This document shows positions 362 to 9,664 of a stretch of 39,295 nucleotides of DNA, piece after piece (within the stretch, counting starts at the first letter, position 1; each line of letters begins with the position of its first letter). Below the pieces are notes generated by a model. That model was not told the origin of the DNA. It did not search any database and saw nothing but the letters and a program-made list of their open reading frames with translations. Position numbers and translations under genes: made by a program. Source of the DNA: Alphaproteobacteria bacterium (GTDB taxonomy: Bacteria; Pseudomonadota; Alphaproteobacteria; UBA9219); assembly GCA_019233975.1 (NCBI GenBank), contig JAFALY010000011.1, forward strand, positions 1 through 39,295, written 5' to 3'.

Positions 362-376
362 ATGGCGGATGGGGTG
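362..376 (+). repeat. Candidate left attachment site (copy of tRNA-Ser 3' end)
   Basis: Bases 362-376 read ATGGCGGATGGGGTG and match 9574-9588 (ATGGCGGATGAGGTG) with one mismatch, in direct orientation. The right copy is the CCA end and acceptor strand of tRNA-Ser(UGA) read on the plus strand. Tyrosine integrases of the P4 type commonly recombine within tRNA 3' ends, leaving such direct repeats. The short length and single mismatch leave real doubt. Confidence 0.55.
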
Positions 377-506
377 TCCGAAAAAATATTTCTTCCGTTC
401 ATCTCATCACGTCTCATAACACCAATAGAACCAATGCTTTTTAACACATTCGATTTTGACTTGATGTACACTGGGCATCGTAACATCTCACAAAATCTCG
501 TCAAGA

Positions 507-1811
507 ATGATGGTAAGGACGATGGTAAAGAAAGCTCCAGATATAGCCCCGGGGGTCATTTCCAGACTGAAAGACCCCGGCATGCACTTTATCGGTTACG
601 TCTCCGGGTTGGCCTTGCGCATCAACAAGACTGGTGCGCGTAACTGGATTTTACGGGCTACGGTAGGCAGCAAACGTCGGGATATAGGGCTTGGAGCCTT
701 CCCGGAGGTCACGGTGGCGCGCGCCAAGGAAATAGCCGCCGAAAAGCGCCAGCAGATACGAAACGGCATTGATCCAGTCGCCGCACGGGAAGCGGCACAA
801 ATGGCTCTGAAAGCCGATCAGGCTTCCTTTATTACCTTCCGCGAAGCGGCTAAGCAGTATATCGCCGCGCATGAAGCAGGATGGAAAAACCTGAAACATG
901 CCGCCCAGTGGCGCACCACCCTTGAGGCTTATGCTTATCCTGAAATCGGTGACCTTCATGTCCGCGACGTTGCGCTGCCGCACGTTCAGAAAATCATTGA
1001 ACCTATCTGGCATAAAAAGACTGAAACGGCGAACCGCCTTCGCGGACGCATCGAGAAGGTTCTCGATTGGGCAACCGCGCGTGGCTTTCGCAGCGGCCAA
1101 AATCCCGCCAGATGGAGGAGTAATTTAGACATGCTCCTCCCTGCGAAGGGCAAAATTGCCAAAGTCCAGCACCACGCGGCTCTTGAATGGCACCAATGCG
1201 GATCGTTCATGGCCGAGCTGCGCCAGCAGGAAGGCTTTAGCGCAAGAGCATTGGAATTTTGCATCCTGACCGCTTGTCGATCCGGGGAAGCGCGTCTTGC
1301 AAAATGGTCGGAATTTGATTTTGATCGCAAAGTCTGGACGATCCCCGCCGTACGCATGAAAGCAGGAAAAGAGCATCGGGTGCCCTTGTCGGCGCAAGCT
1401 ATGGCATTACTTAACAAGCTTCCACGCGAAGAAGGAACCGATCTGCTTTTTCCAAACGGCAAAGGGACTTGCCTCAGCGACATGGCGCTGACCATGCTTT
1501 TACGGCGCATGACGAAAAACTGTACTACGCATGGTTTTCGTTCGACCTTCCGGGATTGGGCGGGTGAAACTACGGCCTTCCCGCGCGAAGTTATCGAACA
1601 TGCGCTCGCGCACCAGTTAAAGGACAAAGCTGAAGCTGCCTATGCAAGGGGTGACATGTTCATGAAACGCACACTCTTGATGCAAGCATGGGCGGATTTT
1701 ATCGACAAACCAGCGGCAGGTGAAAACATCGTGTCAATCGCTCGTTCTGGTACGGACGTTCCCGTGGCCGTTGCAGACACTCACGCGCATCAACAAGTTC
1801 AAGTTGGCTAA
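507..1811 (+). CDS. int: P4-type tyrosine integrase (site-specific recombinase)
   Basis: A 434-residue tyrosine recombinase with the DUF4102-type N-terminal domain (about residues 14-95, including the GLALRI, GARNWILR and RRDIGLGAFPEV stretches), a core-binding SAM-like domain (about 105-200) and a catalytic domain (about 225-385). The catalytic residues are visible: Arg258 in TACRSGEA, His342 and Arg345 in THGFRSTFRDWA, His365 and His369 in the HALAHQL segment, and the nucleophile Tyr379 in AAYARGD. It should integrate and excise the element at the adjacent tRNA-Ser 3' end. Start choice is ambiguous: ATG occurs at 507, 510 and 522, and the family's usual N-terminus (MVKKA) fits 522, where AAGGA is close by. 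A 31-residue tail follows the catalytic tyrosine region and looks intact, so the element may still be mobile. Confidence 0.93.
   Translation: MMVRTMVKKAPDIAPGVISRLKDPGMHFIGYVSGLALRINKTGARNWILRATVGSKRRDIGLGAFPEVTVARAKEIAAEKRQQIRNGIDPVAAREAAQMALKADQASFITFREAAKQYIAAHEAGWKNLKHAAQWRTTLEAYAYPEIGDLHVRDVALPHVQKIIEPIWHKKTETANRLRGRIEKVLDWATARGFRSGQNPARWRSNLDMLLPAKGKIAKVQHHAALEWHQCGSFMAELRQQEGFSARALEFCILTACRSGEARLAKWSEFDFDRKVWTIPAVRMKAGKEHRVPLSAQAMALLNKLPREEGTDLLFPNGKGTCLSDMALTMLLRRMTKNCTTHGFRSTFRDWAGETTAFPREVIEHALAHQLKDKAEAAYARGDMFMKRTLLMQAWADFIDKPAAGENIVSIARSGTDVPVAVADTHAHQQVQVG
509..529 (+). repeat. Left paired GATGGTAA repeats (candidate integrase arm sites)
   Basis: GATGGTAAG (509-517) is followed by GATGGTAAA (521-529), a tandem pair with a 12-base period. 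An equivalent pair with the same period and orientation lies at the other end of the element (9512-9532). The pair overlaps the first codons of the integrase gene. Binding by the integrase N-terminal domain is an inference. Confidence 0.5.
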
Positions 1812-1816
1812 GAAGC

Positions 1817-2482
1817 ATGTCTGTTCATACGAAAAAAATACTTCCAGAATGGCTACCAAAGGCAGTAAAAAAATGGGCTGGCAAGCATGCCGCCGAGCTT
1901 TCAAAGCCAAATAAAGACGATGTTTGGAAGCGAATTTACCGATTGCTTTATTCCCGTGACAATGAATTACAGCAAGTGTGGCGCTGGCTGGAAGAACAGT
2001 CAGCTGATGCTCCGGGAGCATTTATGGAAGAGGTCTTTGACCAACTGCACGTCAGTAATCAGCTAAGAAAGGCTGATCCCCAAATTAGGCAAATGAGGGA
2101 ATTGGCAAAGAAAGCCATCCCCAGTCTCAAAAAAACTCGAATACACCTTCAAAAAATGCATGAGCTTGATGGTTTCTCTTGGTATCTGCCGCAAATTGAC
2201 GCTCTCATCCAAGACCTTGAGGCCAGAGAAGGAGGGTATGACTATCTTGAGAACAACATTTGTTCGAGCAAAAATGTGTTCGGACTTGGAAGGAAAGAAA
2301 AAACGATCAAAGGACAATCGATTTCCTTCACTGTCAGGCTTGCGCGGTACATGGAAGATTTAGGCGCACCCTCATTAGACATGGCCGCTGTGGTGGCCAA
2401 TACAATTTTTGGTACTTCATACACTGGAGCAGACGTTGCAGGAATGCGGGGGAGTAGAAAGAGAAAAAACATTCATCCCTAA
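1817..2482 (+). CDS. Unknown island protein, helical, basic C-terminus
   Basis: A 221-residue protein starting five bases after the integrase stop, so probably co-transcribed with int. The sequence is largely helical in character and rich in Lys, Arg and Glu; it has no membrane segment or signal peptide. The C-terminus ends in a short basic string (RGSRKRK) preceded by a hydrophobic segment containing VVANTIFGTSYTGADV, which could be a small nucleic-acid-binding helix-turn-helix-like unit. I do not recognise a named family. Its place directly behind int suggests an accessory role in element maintenance or regulation, but this is only inferred from position. Confidence 0.75.
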   Translation: MSVHTKKILPEWLPKAVKKWAGKHAAELSKPNKDDVWKRIYRLLYSRDNELQQVWRWLEEQSADAPGAFMEEVFDQLHVSNQLRKADPQIRQMRELAKKAIPSLKKTRIHLQKMHELDGFSWYLPQIDALIQDLEAREGGYDYLENNICSSKNVFGLGRKEKTIKGQSISFTVRLARYMEDLGAPSLDMAAVVANTIFGTSYTGADVAGMRGSRKRKNIHP

Positions 2483-2517
2483 AACTTTTTTGAATGTTCA
2501 TCGTCTAATCTTGTCTC

Positions 2518-2566
2518 ACATGTTGTGGTTACGAACCTTCAACTCTAACCGAGGTTCACAACGTGT
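2518..2566 (+). promoter_or_regulatory. Inverted repeat spanning the alpA leader and start codon
   Basis: ACATGTTGTG (2518-2527) and CACAACGTGT (2557-2566) form inverted arms matching at 9 of 10 positions, separated by 29 bases. The right arm contains the GTG start codon of alpA and the Shine-Dalgarno GAGG (2551-2554) lies in the loop. It could be a DNA operator for an autoregulator, or an RNA stem that hides the start codon; the sequence alone cannot decide. Confidence 0.4.
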
Positions 2567-2799
2567 CAGCAAAAACACCCAAGACCATCCATGCTAGTGG
2601 AACTCTACCACAACATGGTTTCATCAGACAAAAAAATCTGATCCCAGACATTATCCCGATTTCAGGCGCTCAATTATGGCGCTGGGTAAGGGATGGAAAA
2701 TTTCCTCATCCATTAAAGCTATCTCCTAGGGTCACAGCTTGGGATGTCCAATCTGTAAGGAGCTGGATTGAAGCTCAGCATAAAGAAGGTGCAATATGA
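2563..2799 (+). CDS. alpA: AlpA-family transcriptional regulator
   Basis: A 78-residue protein of the AlpA/MerR-like winged-helix type that serves as transcriptional regulator in P4-like satellites and integrative elements. The conserved order is visible: an ISGAQLWRWVRDGKFPHP core (helix-turn-helix plus the G-x-FP-x-P wing), followed by VTAWDVQSVRSWIEAQ, where the Trp and the helix match the family. The gene uses GTG at 2563, with GAGG eight bases upstream. It overlaps the next gene by four bases (ATGA), so the two are likely translationally coupled. In AlpA-bearing elements the protein typically controls excision or replication genes; here the downstream primase and RepA-like genes are the natural targets, which is inference. 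Confidence 0.88.
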   Translation: MSAKTPKTIHASGTLPQHGFIRQKNLIPDIIPISGAQLWRWVRDGKFPHPLKLSPRVTAWDVQSVRSWIEAQHKEGAI

Positions 2800-3053
2800 C
2801 CTGTCCTATCTGCGCCTATCAGGCCAACCCCAGCGCCAAAGTTGAGCGCGGTACAGTATGTGACGTTCATGCTGACGATTTCTTTCCCCCTGCCGGGAAA
2901 ACAACAAAATCAGCAGAACAGCTCTTGACCGACTACGGCATCCCATCCCATCACGAGCTTGTCCCCCACATTCAGGATATTTGCGCAAGGCGAGATCGAG
3001 CGGTGGCTTTCCTCAAAGCTTTTATCGGAGGGCGCGGCAATGACCATGCTTAA
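2796..3053 (+). CDS. Small Cys/His-rich protein, possible zinc-binding, unknown function
   Basis: An 85-residue protein that overlaps alpA by four bases and the following primase gene by 14 bases. The N-terminus has CPIC, then a Cys and a His 17-20 residues later in VCDVH, a spacing that could bind zinc (Cys-Cys-Cys-His). The remainder is soluble and moderately charged, with no recognised domain. Position inside a replication operon suggests a nucleic-acid-associated accessory role, but no family supports that. Coding potential is supported mainly by the nested overlaps on both sides. Confidence 0.7.
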   Translation: MTCPICAYQANPSAKVERGTVCDVHADDFFPPAGKTTKSAEQLLTDYGIPSHHELVPHIQDICARRDRAVAFLKAFIGGRGNDHA

Positions 3054-3837
3054 TCTTGCCCTGTCCTACATCAAGCGCGGCCTTCCGGTGTTTCCGCTGG
3101 TGCCGCGCAGCAAGGTGCCGTTGATTTCCAAAGCCAAAGGCGGGAGTGGTTGTCTTGACGCGACTTGTGACACGGACAAAATCCTCAGATGGTGGACAGA
3201 CTGTCCGGATGCTAATATCGGTCTTGCTACGGGAGCCGCAAGCGGAATTGATGTGCTTGACGTTGACCCGCGCCATAATGGGCATCTGAGCCTTAATACC
3301 CTTGTTCAAAAGCATGACAAGATCGGCAAGACCCCGATAGTTCAAACAGGCGGCGGCGGACTTCATTTCCTGTTTCGCCATCGTGAAGGCATGTCCGGCA
3401 GCGTCGGGCTTATTGGTGAGGGATTGGATGTTCGCGCCGATGGCAACTATGTTGCTGCTGTTGGCAGTATCCATGAAAGCGGTAACGCCTATGAATGGAA
3501 GCCGGGGTTATCGCTGGACGATGTGCCGCTGGCCGACTGGCCGAACTGGCTGTCCCAAATGGTAATGTCTAATAAGGACAGCCGGAAAGCTGCGTCGCCC
3601 GAACATTGGCGCGAAATGATAGCGCAAGGCGTTCAGGAGGGTGGGCGTAATAATGCCGTCACAAAGCTCGCAGGTCACTTGCTGGGTAAAAAGGTTGATC
3701 CCCACGCCACCCTCGATCTGATGCTGATATGGAACCAAGTCCGGTGTCACCCGCCGATGGATGAGGAGGAAGTATTCCAAATCGTTGAGAATGTCGCCGA
3801 GCGTGAGTTCAAGAAGCGCATGGGGAGAAGGCCATGA
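3040..3837 (+). CDS. Bifunctional primase/polymerase (prim-pol, AEP superfamily)
   Basis: A 265-residue protein of the prim-pol domain found in plasmids, satellites and prophages; it makes primers and can extend DNA. Visible hallmarks are the N-terminal YIKRGLPVFPLVP segment, WWTDCPDANIGLATG, the acidic metal-binding motif DVLDVDPRHNG (Asp71, Asp74 and Asp76), a Gly-rich GGGGLHFLF segment with His109, and VRADGNYVAAVGS. The ATG at 3040 was chosen because GGAGG lies eight bases upstream and the domain begins immediately; an in-frame ATG at 2959 lacks support and would overlap the previous gene deeply. It overlaps the ATPase gene by four bases. With that gene it forms a two-protein primase-helicase module instead of the fused primase-helicase seen in P4. 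Confidence 0.9.
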   Translation: MTMLNLALSYIKRGLPVFPLVPRSKVPLISKAKGGSGCLDATCDTDKILRWWTDCPDANIGLATGAASGIDVLDVDPRHNGHLSLNTLVQKHDKIGKTPIVQTGGGGLHFLFRHREGMSGSVGLIGEGLDVRADGNYVAAVGSIHESGNAYEWKPGLSLDDVPLADWPNWLSQMVMSNKDSRKAASPEHWREMIAQGVQEGGRNNAVTKLAGHLLGKKVDPHATLDLMLIWNQVRCHPPMDEEEVFQIVENVAEREFKKRMGRRP

Positions 3838-4943
3838 GCTACATCGAAGGATTGACTGAAACGGAAAACATGATCGAAAAACCAGCGCCCTCGTTTTTAC
3901 CGCTCGTCACCCATAACCTATCCGATTTCCTCGGCCTAATCCTGCCACCACGCAAGATGCTATTATCCCCTTGGCTACCGGAGAAAGGCTTGGCGATGAT
4001 TTATGCCCCGCGTGGTATCGGTAAAACCTTTCTTGGCCTCAGCGTTGCCTATGCCGTCGCCGTGGGCGGTGAGTTCTTGGGCTTCAAGGTAGCGGAGCCA
4101 AGGAAGGTTTTGTATATCGACGGTGAAATGGCCGCGAGTGAATTGCAAATTCGTACCCGGCACATCAGCGCCGGGTTCGGTAAAGAACCGCCTGAACCGG
4201 GTTATTTTCGGATGTTGGCCGCCGACATTCAAGAGCGCGGCCTTCCTGATCTTGCAACGGCGGAGGGGTTGCAAGCGATTAATGTTGAGGTAAGGGATGC
4301 TGATCTGATTGTGTTGGACAATCTCTCGACCCTCATTCGCAGCGGTAAAGAAAATGACGCAGATGCTTGGGGCTTGGTACAGGATTGGATATTAGAGCAA
4401 CGTCGTGCCGGACGATCTGTCATCCTGATCCATCACGCCAACAAAATGGGCGGTCAACGCGGCACCAGCAAACGAGAGGACGTGTTGGATGCGGTTTTAA
4501 GTTTATCCTTGCCAGAAGATTATAAGGACATAGATAAAGCCCGGTTCAACATACATTTTACCAAGGCTTGTCATTTTTATGGCTCCGACAGGGAGCCGTT
4601 GGAGGCGCGATACGAAGTCCAAGACGGTAAGGGGTTGTGGTCGCGGTCGAAAATTAAGACCAAAGTCGAAATAGGGCTTGAAGGCGTTTCTGAGAACTTG
4701 TCCTTGCGGCAGGCGGCAGAGGCGTTAGGTCTTTCAAAATCCACGATCCAAAGGCACAGGAGCAAACAGGCCAAAACAACCCCGGCCTTGGCGAAGTCGT
4801 GGAGCATGAACCCTGTCCCGGCGTCCCAACCCTTAAGCCGTGGGACAGTGGGACAGTCAGTTACGGCTGATCTTGAGAAGCTGATTGCAGAAGCAAGGGG
4901 GACGAAGAAACCGCCGGAACCGGGACTGCCTGATGCGCCTTGA
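3834..4943 (+). CDS. RepA-like RecA-fold ATPase/helicase with C-terminal HTH
   Basis: A 369-residue protein of the RepA/RSF1010-type hexameric ATPase group (AAA_25). Walker A is APRGIGKT (about residues 58-65), the strand LYIDGEM (about 93-99) follows, Walker B is DLIVLDNLS (about 157-165), and ILIHHANK (about 197-204) matches the post-Walker-B His motif of this group. Residues about 288-312 (LSLRQAAEALGLSKSTIQRH) form a clear helix-turn-helix, which may tether the protein to the element's origin. The start overlaps the primase stop by four bases and has AAGG upstream. The last 83 bases overlap the opposite-strand terminase-like gene, and the C-terminal Pro/Ser-rich tail in that overlap is probably non-conserved. 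Likely role: unwinding at the element's origin, inferred. Confidence 0.88.
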   Translation: MSYIEGLTETENMIEKPAPSFLPLVTHNLSDFLGLILPPRKMLLSPWLPEKGLAMIYAPRGIGKTFLGLSVAYAVAVGGEFLGFKVAEPRKVLYIDGEMAASELQIRTRHISAGFGKEPPEPGYFRMLAADIQERGLPDLATAEGLQAINVEVRDADLIVLDNLSTLIRSGKENDADAWGLVQDWILEQRRAGRSVILIHHANKMGGQRGTSKREDVLDAVLSLSLPEDYKDIDKARFNIHFTKACHFYGSDREPLEARYEVQDGKGLWSRSKIKTKVEIGLEGVSENLSLRQAAEALGLSKSTIQRHRSKQAKTTPALAKSWSMNPVPASQPLSRGTVGQSVTADLEKLIAEARGTKKPPEPGLPDAP

Positions 4944-5208
4944 TCTCGGCCAGAAGTTTATCCAGAACCGCGTTGTTCGGCTTGCGCTCAATCTGCACAT
5001 TCGCCAGCCGGGGCGTGACATAGGGTAAAATGATCCCGGCGCATTGCGCCCGGAAGGTCAAGGATTGGTTTTCGTCGCGGACGATGCCAAGCAGAAGTTC
5101 GACAGGCGACAAACCTTCAGCTCCGGCTTCTATCGCCAGCGTCGCGGTCTTGGTCATTTTACTGCCCTTCGGCCTTCCAGCCCCAGGACGACTTCCACCT
5201 CTTGACAT
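4861..5208 (-). CDS. Terminase-small-subunit-like DNA-binding protein
   Basis: A 115-residue protein beginning SRGGSRPGAGRPKGSK, the N-terminal signature common to phage terminase small subunits and related packaging or DNA-recognition proteins. A helical middle (SPVELLLGIVRDENQSLTFRAQCAGIILPY, split here by residue 50) is consistent with the helix-turn-helix-plus-oligomerisation layout. No large subunit is in the window. The gene is convergent with the RepA-like gene, overlapping it by 83 bases, so its last roughly 27 residues share DNA with another protein. In phage satellites a stand-alone small terminase redirects packaging of helper-phage capsids; this function is inferred from family resemblance and context. 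It could also be an unrelated small element protein with the same N-terminal motif. Confidence 0.7.
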   Translation of the reverse strand: MSRGGSRPGAGRPKGSKMTKTATLAIEAGAEGLSPVELLLGIVRDENQSLTFRAQCAGIILPYVTPRLANVQIERKPNNAVLDKLLAEIKAHQAVPVPAVSSSPLLLQSASQDQP

Positions 5209-5231
5209 ATTGTCCCCACTTGAATTTTTTG

Positions 5232-5244
5232 ATTGATAATCAAT
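5232..5244. promoter_or_regulatory. Palindrome between divergent terS-like and DUF5677 genes
   Basis: ATTGAT-A-ATCAAT is a perfect 6-base inverted repeat with a one-base centre, in an AT-rich 89-base gap between two divergently transcribed genes. It is a candidate operator for a small regulator such as AlpA; no binding evidence is available. Confidence 0.3.
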
Positions 5245-5297
5245 ATATCAGAGAACTTAGCTTAATAATAGGCAATCGATCAGGAAGGATAAGAATA

Positions 5298-6110
5298 ATG
5301 TCAATCAATGAAGAGGGTTTTTTATCTCCGGACATTTCACAATGGATCACTAAACATCGCAAGGATAACTCCGGGTGGTTTTCTCTGACAGATCAGCTTA
5401 ACCGCTTGGGACAGAGATTAATGCTGACCTCCAAACCCCCACAGGAAGATAATCAAAAAATCTTAATTGCCTTTTACTTTGTCCGTGTCCTTTCCGCATT
5501 TCAAGGTATCATCTTTCTAGCCGAGCGCGGCATGACTGTTGAGGCGCAGACCTTGGCACGCAGTTGTCTCGAAACGGTTTTTTGCATTTCTGCTATCGCA
5601 GAAGACCCGGATTTCTATAAGCACCTCATTGACGCCGACACTGGCCACAAAACAAAAGCGGCTAATAGGCTAATAGCTTTACCAGATGCTCTAAAGGGAT
5701 TAACTCCCGAACAAACAAAAAACATTGAGAATTTTGTACAATCGAGAAATGAAAGTGAGAACAAAGGGGTAGACCTCAATTTGTATTTAGCAGCCAGCAA
5801 AGGTGGGCTAAGCGATATATATGACACCCTTTATCGGTATCTTTCAAATAAAGCAGCGCATCCATCCCTTGCCGCACTCGACCGATACTTTAGTGAACAT
5901 AAGATCAAATGGGGGCCTGATGTTGACGATGTGGCCGAAACGCTCAGCGCGGCGTCTATGGCACTCCTAAGTGCCATAAAGCTTTTTGCGAAAATACTCG
6001 GGCAAGATAATTATGGACAGGATATAGAAGCATGTTGGAATACGTATCAAACCCTCATCGAAGAACAAACAAAAGAAGTTGATATTGAGATGAGTAAAGT
6101 CGCCACCTAG
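5298..6110 (+). CDS. DUF5677-like protein, possible island cargo
   Basis: A 270-residue, mostly helical cytosolic protein. The features resemble the DUF5677 family: a segment ARSCLETVFCISAIAEDPDF (about residues 77-96 of this start) with the conserved Arg and Glu, a Lys-rich helix around GHKTKAAN, and YRYLSNKAAHPSLAAL, which matches the conserved Ser-x-x-x-His-Pro motif. The ATG at 5298 was chosen because AGGAAGGA lies just upstream. Codon use is more AT-rich than in chromosomal neighbours, consistent with transfer. The biochemical function of the family is unknown to me, although such genes often occur in variable islands. It ends six bases from the convergent membrane-protein gene. Confidence 0.75.
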   Translation: MSINEEGFLSPDISQWITKHRKDNSGWFSLTDQLNRLGQRLMLTSKPPQEDNQKILIAFYFVRVLSAFQGIIFLAERGMTVEAQTLARSCLETVFCISAIAEDPDFYKHLIDADTGHKTKAANRLIALPDALKGLTPEQTKNIENFVQSRNESENKGVDLNLYLAASKGGLSDIYDTLYRYLSNKAAHPSLAALDRYFSEHKIKWGPDVDDVAETLSAASMALLSAIKLFAKILGQDNYGQDIEACWNTYQTLIEEQTKEVDIEMSKVAT

Positions 6111-6116
6111 CAATAT

Positions 6117-6437
6117 TCAAGGCTTTTCCGATAAACCCTTCTTTTCATAAAACCACTTATCATAAACAGGGTCAGGCATACCCCCTAAACTCTCAATACG
6201 TTCTTTTTCATTTCTTTTAGGGACAAGCGCAACCCAGCGCAGATGTTCATCCATACTTTCCAATAAAGATTTTACCTCTCTTGCTTCCTTGGCATTGCTT
6301 GATGATAGGTTGTCCAAAATTCCGCACATGTGTTTCGTGTTCATAGCGATAGCTTCGAGCCATCCAGATATGTGCTGAGCTATGAACAAAAGCCAAAGTC
6401 CGATTATAACCAGCACACCCACCGCGATTTCTATCAT
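6117..6437 (-). CDS. Small single-pass membrane protein, unknown function
   Basis: A 106-residue protein with one N-terminal hydrophobic helix (about residues 3-24, IAVGVLVIIGLWLLFIA) and no cleavage signal, then a soluble region with a helical, charged stretch (about 45-70) that could form a coiled coil, followed by a Pro/Lys-rich tail. The layout suggests a membrane-anchored protein facing the cytoplasm. No family recognised. It lies nine bases downstream of the lipoprotein gene on the same strand, so the two are probably co-transcribed, and both act at the envelope. Confidence 0.6.
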   Translation of the reverse strand: MIEIAVGVLVIIGLWLLFIAQHISGWLEAIAMNTKHMCGILDNLSSSNAKEAREVKSLLESMDEHLRWVALVPKRNEKERIESLGGMPDPVYDKWFYEKKGLSEKP

Positions 6438-6446
6438 GGCGACCTC

Positions 6447-6797
6447 CTACTGATCTTTAACGGTCGTAAGCTGCCAGCCCTTGGCCTGCAAACAGGCATT
6501 CATCAGCTGGTTCCGGGCGGTCTGGTTCATATCCTTGGCGCGGACTTGTCCGCCGCCGCCGTTCCAGTTGGCGTTGCCTCCAGCGCTGTTCCAATTTGCA
6601 TTGCCGCCGCCGCCCGACCAAGCCGCCGTATTCGCTACCGTGACCGGAGCCGATGCCATTGCGCTCTGCATGCAGGCATAGTTATCGGTACTGAAATCTT
6701 GTTGTGTCGACCCGGGCTTGACCCAGACCTGATGAGAACAGCTTGTGAGCAGCAAACAGGCGGCGATCCCGGCACAAAAAACTGAAACTTTATTCAT
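6447..6797 (-). CDS. Putative lipoprotein with Gly/Asn/Trp repeat
   Basis: A 116-residue protein with a lipoprotein signal: Lys3, a hydrophobic core, and the lipobox LLTSC near residues 16-20, giving Cys20 as the lipidated residue. The middle holds two near-identical blocks GGNANWN (about residues 62-84) flanked by Gly-rich runs. Three Cys residues in all include two after the lipobox (YACMQSA and MNACLQAKGW), a pattern also seen in small envelope lipoproteins such as those with the ACxxxKGW ending. The start at 6797 is preceded by GGGGAG at seven bases; a TTG 15 bases further upstream is not needed. Function unknown; outer-membrane or inner-membrane anchoring cannot be decided. Confidence 0.72.
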   Translation of the reverse strand: MNKVSVFCAGIAACLLLTSCSHQVWVKPGSTQQDFSTDNYACMQSAMASAPVTVANTAAWSGGGGNANWNSAGGNANWNGGGGQVRAKDMNQTARNQLMNACLQAKGWQLTTVKDQ

Positions 6798-7160
6798 CCT
6801 CAAACTCCCCAACAGTGAAGAAGCCAGCCAGAGGATTACCCACTGGTGGCCGGGGAGTTGATAAACCTGCTGTAACAGAGGTCGCGCAGACCTTTAGACT
6901 TTCGTCCTGAACATACATCTGCGCCTCCCCGACCGTCGGTCGAGGAGTGCTTTTCCGGTTGCACAAAACCGGTTACAGCAAGGGTTATCACGCCCCAAAG
7001 ACAGGTATGCCCTGCCTCTGCCGCACAGAATGAGGACAAGAACAGCATACGTCAACAGAAGAAAATCTGAGGTAACAATCTAGTAACAAAGAAAGTTATC
7101 GATTAAGCTAATAGTTTAGATTTTGTATCCAATTCCATGCTCATACTTCATGAGGGGACA
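6798..7160. promoter_or_regulatory. Divergent intergenic region with two hairpin-forming repeats
   Basis: This 363-base gap separates the lipoprotein gene (minus) from the KAP gene (plus). I see no convincing gene in it. It holds two close inverted repeats: GACCG-T-CGGTC (6931-6941), with flanking CTCC/GGAG bases that extend the pairing imperfectly, and CCGGTT-N6-AACCGG (6955-6972). Neither is followed by a T-run on either strand, so they do not look like intrinsic terminators. The last 90 bases are AT-rich and probably contain the promoter of the KAP gene. Confidence 0.4.
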
Positions 7161-9323
7161 ATGCCGACGAACGATCTACCAATTACCAACAATGGGGATG
7201 ATCTCTACGGCTTCGATCCCTTCGCCAATGCTATCGCTACATCCGTCAAAAAGATGTCCGCGCCCGAAGGCGTTGTTATTGCCATCAATGGCTTGTGGGG
7301 CAGCGGCAAGACCAGCGTCCTCAACCTCATCGCCGAGAAATTAAAAGATAACGATCAAATCGAGGTTGCACCCTTTAATCCATGGTGGTTTTCGACTTCA
7401 GAAGCCCTGACGCTAGGTTTCCTCAACGATATGCATGTCTTGCTGGGCAAATCCCTCGGCGATCAGGCCAAGGAGATTTTCCGCAAGTTTGATAGCTTGC
7501 TGGGCGCTACCGGGAAAATCATCGAGCTTGCTGGTGACGCCGTTGTTCCCGGAGCTGGTAAAGTCGTGGCAGCCACCACCAAAATTGGCATGAAGGGGCT
7601 TGAGGGTCTTGTATCGGAAGATACCTTGCCCAAGTTGTTCGCGAAAATCAGCGACCTTCTTAAGGCATCCGAAAAACGCTATGTTGTCATCATTGATGAC
7701 ATTGACCGCTTGCCACCCGATGAAGCCTTGCAGCTATTCCGGCTCATCAAGTCCGTGGGCCGCTTACCCAATGTGATTTACATTCTGGCCTACGACCGTG
7801 TCTTGGCCGAAAAACTGATCCAAGAAAAGTTTCCCTCTGAAGGCCCCCACTATCTCGATAAGATCGTGCAAGCGGCCTTCGAGGTACCGCCGATCACCAA
7901 CGACGACTTGCGCGATCAGTTTATGAAAGAGCTGGGGGACATCTGTAAGAAACCCGACGGCGAAGACGAGAAGTATTTTTATAACGTCATGTATGGCGCG
8001 GTGACGCCGGGCTTTACTACACCCCGCGACATTAAGCGTCTGCTTGGCATGTTGGAAGTGACATGGCCTGCTGTTCAAGATGAGTTGAACCGTGCTGACT
8101 TCGTGGCGTTGGAGGCCATTCGTCTGAAATATGTCGCGCTTTACAAGGCACTTCGCGACAATCCTGGCCTACTTACTGGCACCGGACGCTCGACCGGGCG
8201 CGATAAGCAAGATATAGCTGATATGTGCAATCAGGCTTTCTTAACAGTCGTGCCGCCCTCAGACCGCGAGGCGGTGAGAACCTCTCTGATGCGGATTTTC
8301 CCAAGGCTTCAATCTGTGTGGGGCAATCTCTATTACGACGACAGTCGAAACCAAACTTGGACGCGCGACAGGAACGTCTGTTCCCGCAAATTTTTCTCGG
8401 CTTATTTCCGTCTTGACGTATCGGGGGATGTTCTATCGAGGAAGGAAGTTGCTTCGATCATCGCCGTTGCCGGGGACGAAGCCGCATTGACACAGAAATT
8501 CCTTGACGGCATTCAGACGAAAATGAAAAGCGGTCGCTCGAAAGCATCCGTTATGTTGGACGAATTGACGCTTAGCGCTGACGACATAAAGGAAGCCGAC
8601 GCCCCTGTGTTCCTGAAAACGGTTCTCGGCCTTTATGAGAAACTATGGCTCGCTAGTGACAAGGCCAGAGGCATGATGGCAATCGAGGACAATCGGCTTC
8701 GCTTGCACTGGCTCTTGAACGCCCTACGCCCACGGTTCACGGTCAAAAAACGAAACGAACTGCTGACGAAAGCGCTCAGCGATGCCCCGACAGCCTGCCT
8801 CTTGGATTTTGCCGAGCGCATGGATTCCGAACAAAAACCCAGTAGCAATGGCACTGTCACACCGGAAGACGAGCGTTTCGTTGATGCCGCGACTGCTGAG
8901 GCTTTAGTGAAACTGGCAGCTGAACGGGTAGAAGCCGACGCCAACAATAATTTGCTTGGCAAAATCGAAGACCTTATGCGCTTCCTGTATGCTGTCCGGC
9001 GCATGTTACCCAACGGGGCTGAAGAAGTGCTGAAGATCACAAGCTCTGCCCTTAAGGACGACGATTTTGTCCTTAACCTTGCCTTTAGTTCCGTAGGGCA
9101 AACGTGGTCGCAAGGTATGGGCATGATCGGCTTAGGTGACTTGGTTGCTGTCGGTAAATCGAAAATCAACAAGACCGATATAAGTAACGTGGCCGATCTC
9201 GATGTGTTTATGAAACGGCTAATCGAGGTTCGCGATGGGGGCAAACTGAGCGCCGACCAGCAAGAAGGTCTCAAGGCTTTTTTCCAGCTCTGGGACGAGG
9301 CTGGCGAAGTCGAAGCAGCATAA
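7161..9323 (+). CDS. KAP-family P-loop NTPase
   Basis: A 720-residue protein of the KAP NTPase family (STAND-like). It begins with the family's YGFDPFA entry motif; Walker A is GLWGSGKTS (residues 44-52), followed by FNPWWFS (72-78), and Walker B is YVVIIDDIDRL (174-184), then the sensor-like VIYILAYDR (205-213) and the conserved FEVPPI. KAP proteins usually carry a membrane insertion; the small hydrophobic segment around residues 115-145 is Gly/Ala-rich and is not a convincing helix pair. The C-terminal half (about 330-720) is helical and unrecognised. The ATG at 7161 has GAGG five bases upstream. KAP NTPases occur in anti-phage systems such as Qat, so as stand-alone cargo of a satellite-like island a defence role is plausible but inferred. 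Confidence 0.87.
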   Translation: MPTNDLPITNNGDDLYGFDPFANAIATSVKKMSAPEGVVIAINGLWGSGKTSVLNLIAEKLKDNDQIEVAPFNPWWFSTSEALTLGFLNDMHVLLGKSLGDQAKEIFRKFDSLLGATGKIIELAGDAVVPGAGKVVAATTKIGMKGLEGLVSEDTLPKLFAKISDLLKASEKRYVVIIDDIDRLPPDEALQLFRLIKSVGRLPNVIYILAYDRVLAEKLIQEKFPSEGPHYLDKIVQAAFEVPPITNDDLRDQFMKELGDICKKPDGEDEKYFYNVMYGAVTPGFTTPRDIKRLLGMLEVTWPAVQDELNRADFVALEAIRLKYVALYKALRDNPGLLTGTGRSTGRDKQDIADMCNQAFLTVVPPSDREAVRTSLMRIFPRLQSVWGNLYYDDSRNQTWTRDRNVCSRKFFSAYFRLDVSGDVLSRKEVASIIAVAGDEAALTQKFLDGIQTKMKSGRSKASVMLDELTLSADDIKEADAPVFLKTVLGLYEKLWLASDKARGMMAIEDNRLRLHWLLNALRPRFTVKKRNELLTKALSDAPTACLLDFAERMDSEQKPSSNGTVTPEDERFVDAATAEALVKLAAERVEADANNNLLGKIEDLMRFLYAVRRMLPNGAEEVLKITSSALKDDDFVLNLAFSSVGQTWSQGMGMIGLGDLVAVGKSKINKTDISNVADLDVFMKRLIEVRDGGKLSADQQEGLKAFFQLWDEAGEVEAA

Positions 9324-9373
9324 TAGGGCAAATTTCAAAAAATTACGCAGTTTTCGAAGGGCATCCTCAATTC

Positions 9374-9420
9374 TAATTCCCCATCCGGGCAGCCCGGACG
9401 TTTCCCGAGTTAGGGAATTA
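9374..9420. repeat. Nested stem-loop structure near the right end
   Basis: TAATTCCC (9374-9381) pairs with GGGAATTA (9413-9420), and inside it TCCGGG (9384-9389) pairs with CCCGGA (9393-9398). Both stems are perfect. It could terminate the KAP transcript, although no T-run follows, or be a recombination accessory site near attR. Confidence 0.45.
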
Positions 9421-9511
9421 AACGTTCAGAAATCTCCGCTCTTCTTCTGCGAAGATATGAGCTGGAAAGATTTTTTCTGAGATGATGCAAAAAAGACTCA
9501 CCCTAAAAAAT

Positions 9512-9532
9512 GATGGTAAGCCTGATGGTAAG
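9512..9532 (+). repeat. Right paired GATGGTAAG repeats (candidate integrase arm sites)
   Basis: GATGGTAAG occurs at 9512-9520 and again at 9524-9532, with the same 12-base period and the same orientation as the pair at 509-529. It lies 42 bases inside the tRNA-Ser end of the element. A relic of an integrase start is an alternative, but the bases after the pair do not match the integrase reading frame. Confidence 0.5.
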
Positions 9533-9574
9533 ACGGCAAAGACATCAAAATTATTTTTATAAATCAACAAGTAA

Positions 9575-9664
9575 TGGCGGATGAGGTGAGATTCGAACTC
9601 ACGGAGAGCTTGCACCCTCGCCGGTTTTCAAGACCGGTGCCTTAAACCGCTCGGCCACTCATCC
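9575..9664 (-). tRNA. tRNA-Ser(UGA)
   Basis: Read on the minus strand, the 90-base sequence begins GGATGAG and ends CTCATCC-G-CCA, which pair as a 7-base acceptor stem. The anticodon stem CCGGT/ACCGG encloses the loop CTTGAAA, giving anticodon TGA (plus-strand bases 9628-9630). A long variable arm (GAGGGTGCAAGCTCTC region) and GTTCGAATC in the T-arm complete a class II serine tRNA. CCA is encoded. Its 3' end forms the right boundary of the island, and the gene remains intact. Confidence 0.95.

Follow-up and report, generated by a model that had tools for sequence, protein, structure and literature searches.

The element at positions 363-9574 (9,212 bp) of the window, by which we mean the whole 39,295-bp stretch of DNA analysed here, is probably a TerS-bearing, PICI-type integrative phage satellite of an alphaproteobacterium. 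This reading is favoured because the gene order is that of PICIs and PICMIs and because related elements include capsid-forming, TerS-TerL, TerS-only and minimal forms. The features of the locus are collected in table 1.

Table 1. Positions of the element's genes, repeats and integration target in the window.
Feature	Position	Strand	Basis or remark
attL, left attachment core	363-376		displaced copy of the tRNA-Ser 3' end, 13/14
Possible integrase arm-type repeat, left copy (GATGGTAAGGACGATGGTAA)	503-528		85% over 26 nt with 9506-9531
int, tyrosine integrase	507-1811	+	Arm-DNA-bind_3, Phage_int_M, Phage_integrase
orf221	1817-2482	+	no known family; starts 5 bp after int; place of the PICMI int-adjacent gene iolg/icg
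alpA, excisionase/regulator family	2563-2799	+	PF05930, 3.9e-8, above cut-off
Small Cys-containing ORF	2796-3053	+	overlaps alpA and prim; no family match
prim, primase	3040-3837	+	Prim-Pol 6.7e-36, PriCT_1 4.3e-14
repA-like AAA_25 ATPase	3834-4943	+	5.5e-31; C-terminal HTH-like region
terS-like, candidate terminase small subunit	4861-5208	-	phrog_15261, 1.8e-11
DUF5677 protein	5298-6110	+	1.6e-23; upstream TTG start at 5202 also possible
Small ORF with N-terminal hydrophobic stretch	6117-6437	-	no assigned family
Glycine-rich lipoprotein-like ORF	6447-6812	-	sequence reading; no Pfam match
KAP P-loop NTPase, PifA-like	7158-9323	+	KAP_NTPase 2.6e-51; PADLOC PifA 2.4e-110, nearly full length
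Possible integrase arm-type repeat, right copy	9506-9531		pairs with 503-528
tRNA-Ser(UGA), integration target	9575-9664	-	3' end, 9575-9588, is the right attachment core

The window is the complete contig C14 of a 1.88-Mb MAG whose gene content is alphaproteobacterial. The 147 bp at its start recur unchanged as the final 147 bp of contig C1 and nowhere else in the genome, and therefore the left flank of the element is chromosomal. This flank has the order ubiH-dapD-fur-polysaccharide deacetylase-like (names by sequence reading), followed by orf0 (23-358), for which no homologue was found outside its own genome. To the right of the element lie tRNA-Ser(UGA), an exonuclease III-like gene and then ordinary chromosomal genes. 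The surroundings of tRNA-Ser(UGA) in genomes of the same family differ from those in the window, and the homologues of window proteins that occur near tRNA-Ser in these genomes are without a conserved neighbourhood. Two more distant integrase-family genes of the same MAG (G000:C6:70034-71176 and G000:C16:72808-73623) possibly belong to other islands.

The original prediction placed the element at 362-9590; the boundaries are backed by the attachment core and the tRNA-Ser layout of relatives, and the span is corrected to 363-9574, its right end being the 3' end of tRNA-Ser(UGA). On the plus strand, attL reads TGGCGGATGGGGTG and the tRNA 3' end reads TGGCGGATGAGGTG, with 13 of 14 positions identical, but this single pair is only modestly significant alone (shuffle P about 0.02). 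The decisive support for the boundaries is comparative and does not come from the single repeat pair. Among 74 loci of integrase relatives with enough upstream DNA, 41 carry the core TGGCGGANNN[GA]G[TA]G at most 300 bp upstream of int, where 0.04 would be expected, and the core is usually followed by TCC or TCT, as it is in the window. A tRNA-Ser in the window-like orientation lies 3.4-11.2 kb downstream of int in 15 of 80 relatives, and seven of the 80 have one 147-231 bp upstream of it. In the complete relatives tested, the core corresponds to the 14 nt with which their own tRNA-Ser ends; the exception is G058, in which the core was not found upstream of int and a transposase-like ORF adjoins that end. 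Given these positions in the relatives, an integrase gene far from the tRNA is a normal layout of the clade, and the element can be delimited as 363-9574, with int starting 144 bp inside attL. A second repeat pair, of the GATGGTAAG type, is present near both ends (503-528 and 9506-9531), and comparable pairs occur in G058 and G206. These repeats look like integrase arm sites.

The same comparison supports the view that the integrase is specific to tRNA-Ser. Its relatives (48-59% identity) are found throughout Proteobacteria, and the integrase tree supports a group of seven in which the window sits together with L144, L186 and L199. Genes that look inovirus-like by sequence reading, namely those for a Zot-like ATPase and small membrane proteins, adjoin a related integrase gene in one viral contig (L222, IMGVR_UViG_2645727519_000001), so that integrases of this class may serve filamentous phages as well.

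All genes named in the original prediction (int, an unknown gene, alpA, a Cys-rich gene, prim-pol, a RepA-like gene and a terS-like gene) are present with open reading frames. For the scanned ORFs, its statement that capsid, tail and conjugation genes are lacking stands as well, and no portal or relaxase gene was seen among them. From alpA through the Cys ORF and prim to repA, neighbouring genes share 4 to 14 bases at each junction and are probably transcribed as one operon. Compared with phages and plasmids, RepA has distant matches only. The separate primase and ATPase had been set against the fused protein of P4; they are indeed separate here, but this separation does not discriminate, because L144, a 6.6-kb minimal element of the same integrase clade, encodes all three domains, Prim-Pol, PriCT_1 and AAA_25, in a single fusion protein of 648 aa.

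The terS-like gene runs antisense to repA, whose 3' end it overlaps. The matching family, phrog_15261, is without an assigned function, and a named TerS family was matched marginally (0.021). A class-wide search for phrog_15261 located members directly upstream of the large terminase in two genomes, L121, whose large terminase has phrog_2 and Terminase_6N/6C matches, and L131, whose TerL was identified by sequence reading. Another member is found in G058 beside an Sf6-type TerS (PF20901, 1.7e-37), and the G058 and G042 members weakly match terminase-small-subunit families. A tblastn search with the protein in phages and plasmids and a scan of viral contigs gave no match. The single-sequence fold reached a pLDDT of 63 with no fold match in PDB and therefore counts neither way. 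The homology is remote; the product is a likely TerS.

The region from 5298 to 9323 consists of cargo. The PifA-like NTPase is probable anti-phage cargo, judging from its family. Weak homologues (27-32%) of the glycine-rich lipoprotein-like product are encoded just upstream of tRNA-Ser in two genomes of the same family (L061 and L066), a likeness for which composition bias may account.

Most of what is known about phage satellites comes from Enterobacterales, Vibrionaceae and Gram-positive cocci. When the gene order was compared with the satellite classes, it matched that of Gram-negative PICIs and PICMIs. Gram-negative PICIs carry int, alpA, genes for interference and, in some cases, terS, and they have a primase and a replication initiator, which can be fused into one protein (PMC6092414). 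With such elements (e.g. EcCICFT073; PMC6092414) the window has in common an integrase at one end together with site-specific integration at a chromosomal attachment site, the AlpA regulator, which can be MerR in other such elements, a primase followed by a replication initiator downstream of that regulator (by domain families) and interference cargo. As for packaging, PICIs of this kind lack structural genes and rely on their own terS or on the cos of the helper; no structural gene was found in the window element, and its terS-like gene, a remote match, may be a counterpart of the PICI terS. The window element differs in its two-protein Prim-Pol/AAA_25 module, the opposite-strand position of the terS-like gene, the tRNA-Ser target and the alphaproteobacterial host. 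In PICMIs of Vibrionaceae, int is followed by an unknown gene that adjoins or overlaps it, then by alpA, in many cases a further small gene of unknown function, and a primase gene; packaged satellite dropped strongly when alpA, int, the gene next to int or the primase gene was deleted (PMC10803314). This series and the lack of capsid genes are shared with the window. However, PICMIs are defined by a DUF3987/DUF5906 primase and by insertion next to fis (PMC10803314), whereas the window has Prim-Pol/PriCT_1 and tRNA-Ser in their place and adds repA, the terS-like gene and cargo, so that it is not a PICMI.

Of the other classes, capsid-forming PICI-like elements (L321, L194 and L314) share alpA and a related integrase and/or RepA with the window; they have a head protein and both terminase subunits, whereas the window has the terS-like gene only; neither head morphogenesis genes nor TerL were found in 363-9574, and the capsid-forming identity was rejected. 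P4-like satellites share the tyrosine integrase and the AlpA/Vis-family gene with the window, and in both there is a primase-helicase function and defence cargo. Unlike them, the window has a terS-like gene and lacks the fused alpha protein; no P4 capsid-sizing or transactivation family was recognised, and P4 identity was likewise rejected. As far as the descriptions in the papers that name them go (PMC10803314, PMC11389934), the marine tycheposons and VEIMEs are similar in being satellite-like integrative elements with proposed virion carriage. A literature search that excluded the main SatelliteFinder survey found no described alphaproteobacterial PICI, which is weak evidence of absence. The proposal of an undescribed satellite is therefore only partly right, since the plan itself is that of Gram-negative PICIs and PICMIs. 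The element is best described as a probable PICI-type element in Alphaproteobacteria that combines a Prim-Pol/AAA_25 module, a terS-like gene on the opposite strand and PifA-like cargo.

Integrases and/or RepA proteins of the window type occur in several satellite-like elements with head and terminase genes, in which no tail gene was found, and in others with TerS-TerL, with TerS only (G058) or with a minimal set. L321, an IMG/VR contig of 12.6 kb, has int (44%), RepA (41%) and, at the far end, a tRNA-Ser. It encodes a major head protein (4.9e-67), a head protease (5.8e-49), a portal (5.9e-114), a head-tail adaptor, HNH, TerS (5.2e-44) and TerL (1.9e-129); tail genes were looked for and none was seen. 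Its predicted plan is that of a capsid-forming PICI. The gene content of L314 (RepA 46%) resembles this type and L194 (Lysobacteraceae NML93-0793), which has int (51%), tRNA-Ser, a head protein (1.1e-89), scaffold, adaptor, TerS and TerL. TerL without a recognised capsid gene was found in the tRNA-Ser elements L184 and L141, the former also having a DNA methylase. Related integrases are accompanied by TerS and TerL in tandem in L184, L205 and L230, the first two of which are tRNA-Ser elements, and a serine-resolvase-like gene precedes TerS in L184 and L230; these three, with no recognised capsid gene, are possible terminase-only satellites. The G058 element in tRNA-Ser(GCU) (C1 of that genome, L136:9529 to L137:1675) contains int, HTH_17, a Toprim/DUF927 primase and a restriction enzyme. 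Two TerS-type genes are adjacent in it, no TerL was seen and the restriction enzyme, Type ISP-like, would be its cargo. It is a candidate second TerS-only satellite.

The suggestion of a satellite-like island in tRNA-Ser is borne out by the boundaries, the gene order, the TerS-family gene and the kinship of int and RepA with capsid-forming satellite-like elements. A helper prophage was not found in the MAG. The only TerL region found there (C16:1-16000, L303) encodes, by sequence reading, TerL, a portal-protease-capsid-connector series, DUF2460/DUF2163/NlpC-like genes and a large tail protein, with no obvious major tail or tape-measure gene; the cluster looks GTA-like, resembling gene transfer agents. 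A TerL-model match on C26, considered as a second TerL locus, reads as a PhoH-like ATPase. A lytic phage could serve as helper, as could a prophage that is missing from the assembly.

If the element is a satellite, its life cycle would be as follows. The integrase inserts the element into the tRNA-Ser 3' end, as comparison supports; AlpA, from its family and the gene order, would act as excisionase, activator or both, and the excised circle would be replicated by the alpA-cys-prim-repA operon. Upon helper infection or induction, the TerS-like protein of the island would recognise island DNA and direct the large terminase of the helper, and the island would be packaged into helper particles. 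The PifA-like NTPase, and perhaps also the DUF5677 protein, would block phages.

On the one hand, the satellite reading is favoured by the exact boundaries, the gene order, the lack of structural and relaxase genes among the scanned ORFs, the position of TerS-family members next to terminase genes elsewhere, the PifA-like cargo and the satellite kin. On the other hand, the remote TerS match, the missing helper prophage and the relatives with other contents count against it. G206 has the same integrase class and RepA in tRNA-Ser(CGA); its cargo is umuDC-like and PIN-like, and no packaging gene was recognised in it. A relaxase-like protein is encoded in the tRNA-Ser elements of two RepA relatives, L105 and L106; for this reason neither int nor RepA alone marks a satellite. 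The next best reading, which we consider unlikely, is a defence-carrying island capable of excision and replication that lacks a packaging strategy of its own and spreads passively by generalised transduction, GTA or natural transformation, its terS-like gene encoding some other small DNA-binding protein. G206, the GTA-like cluster encoded in the genome and the weak TerS homology would fit such an island, whereas the presence of a TerS-family gene and the recurrence of TerS, TerL and capsid modules on the same integrase/RepA chassis would not.

Conjugation offers another route, in which an integrative mobilisable element with oriT only is moved by a conjugative helper. L105 and L106 lend this some credit, but they have a different integrase and a Toprim-type primase, and no relaxase was found among the scanned ORFs of the window element. 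We consider this reading very unlikely. Marginally less credible still is an immobile, decayed prophage or decayed capsid-forming satellite that has lost its head genes. It would account for int, alpA, primase, RepA and TerS all belonging to phage-related families, and capsid-forming relatives do exist; yet the reading frames of the core genes are undamaged and overlap closely, independent elements at different tRNA-Ser genes show the same compact plan, and no structural remnant was seen. P4 membership, IME membership and a decayed prophage all rank below the PICI-type reading.

If the PICI-type satellite is placed among its relatives, a proteobacterial satellite lineage can be tentatively outlined, although we lean slightly against it: one chassis (tRNA-Ser integrase, AlpA and Prim-Pol/AAA_25 RepA) would carry interchangeable packaging modules (none, TerS only, TerS and TerL, or a full head module). 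The integrase/att signature, TGGCGGANNNGGWG upstream of int and a tRNA-Ser at the far end, is searchable, and a PifA-like defence gene is now linked to a mobile element. With exact boundaries, this signature and relatives that range from minimal to capsid-forming, module exchange on one chassis becomes testable. Should the shared-chassis reading be true, PICI-type and capsid-forming satellites would interconvert by such exchange, and TerS-only satellites would exist in Alphaproteobacteria.
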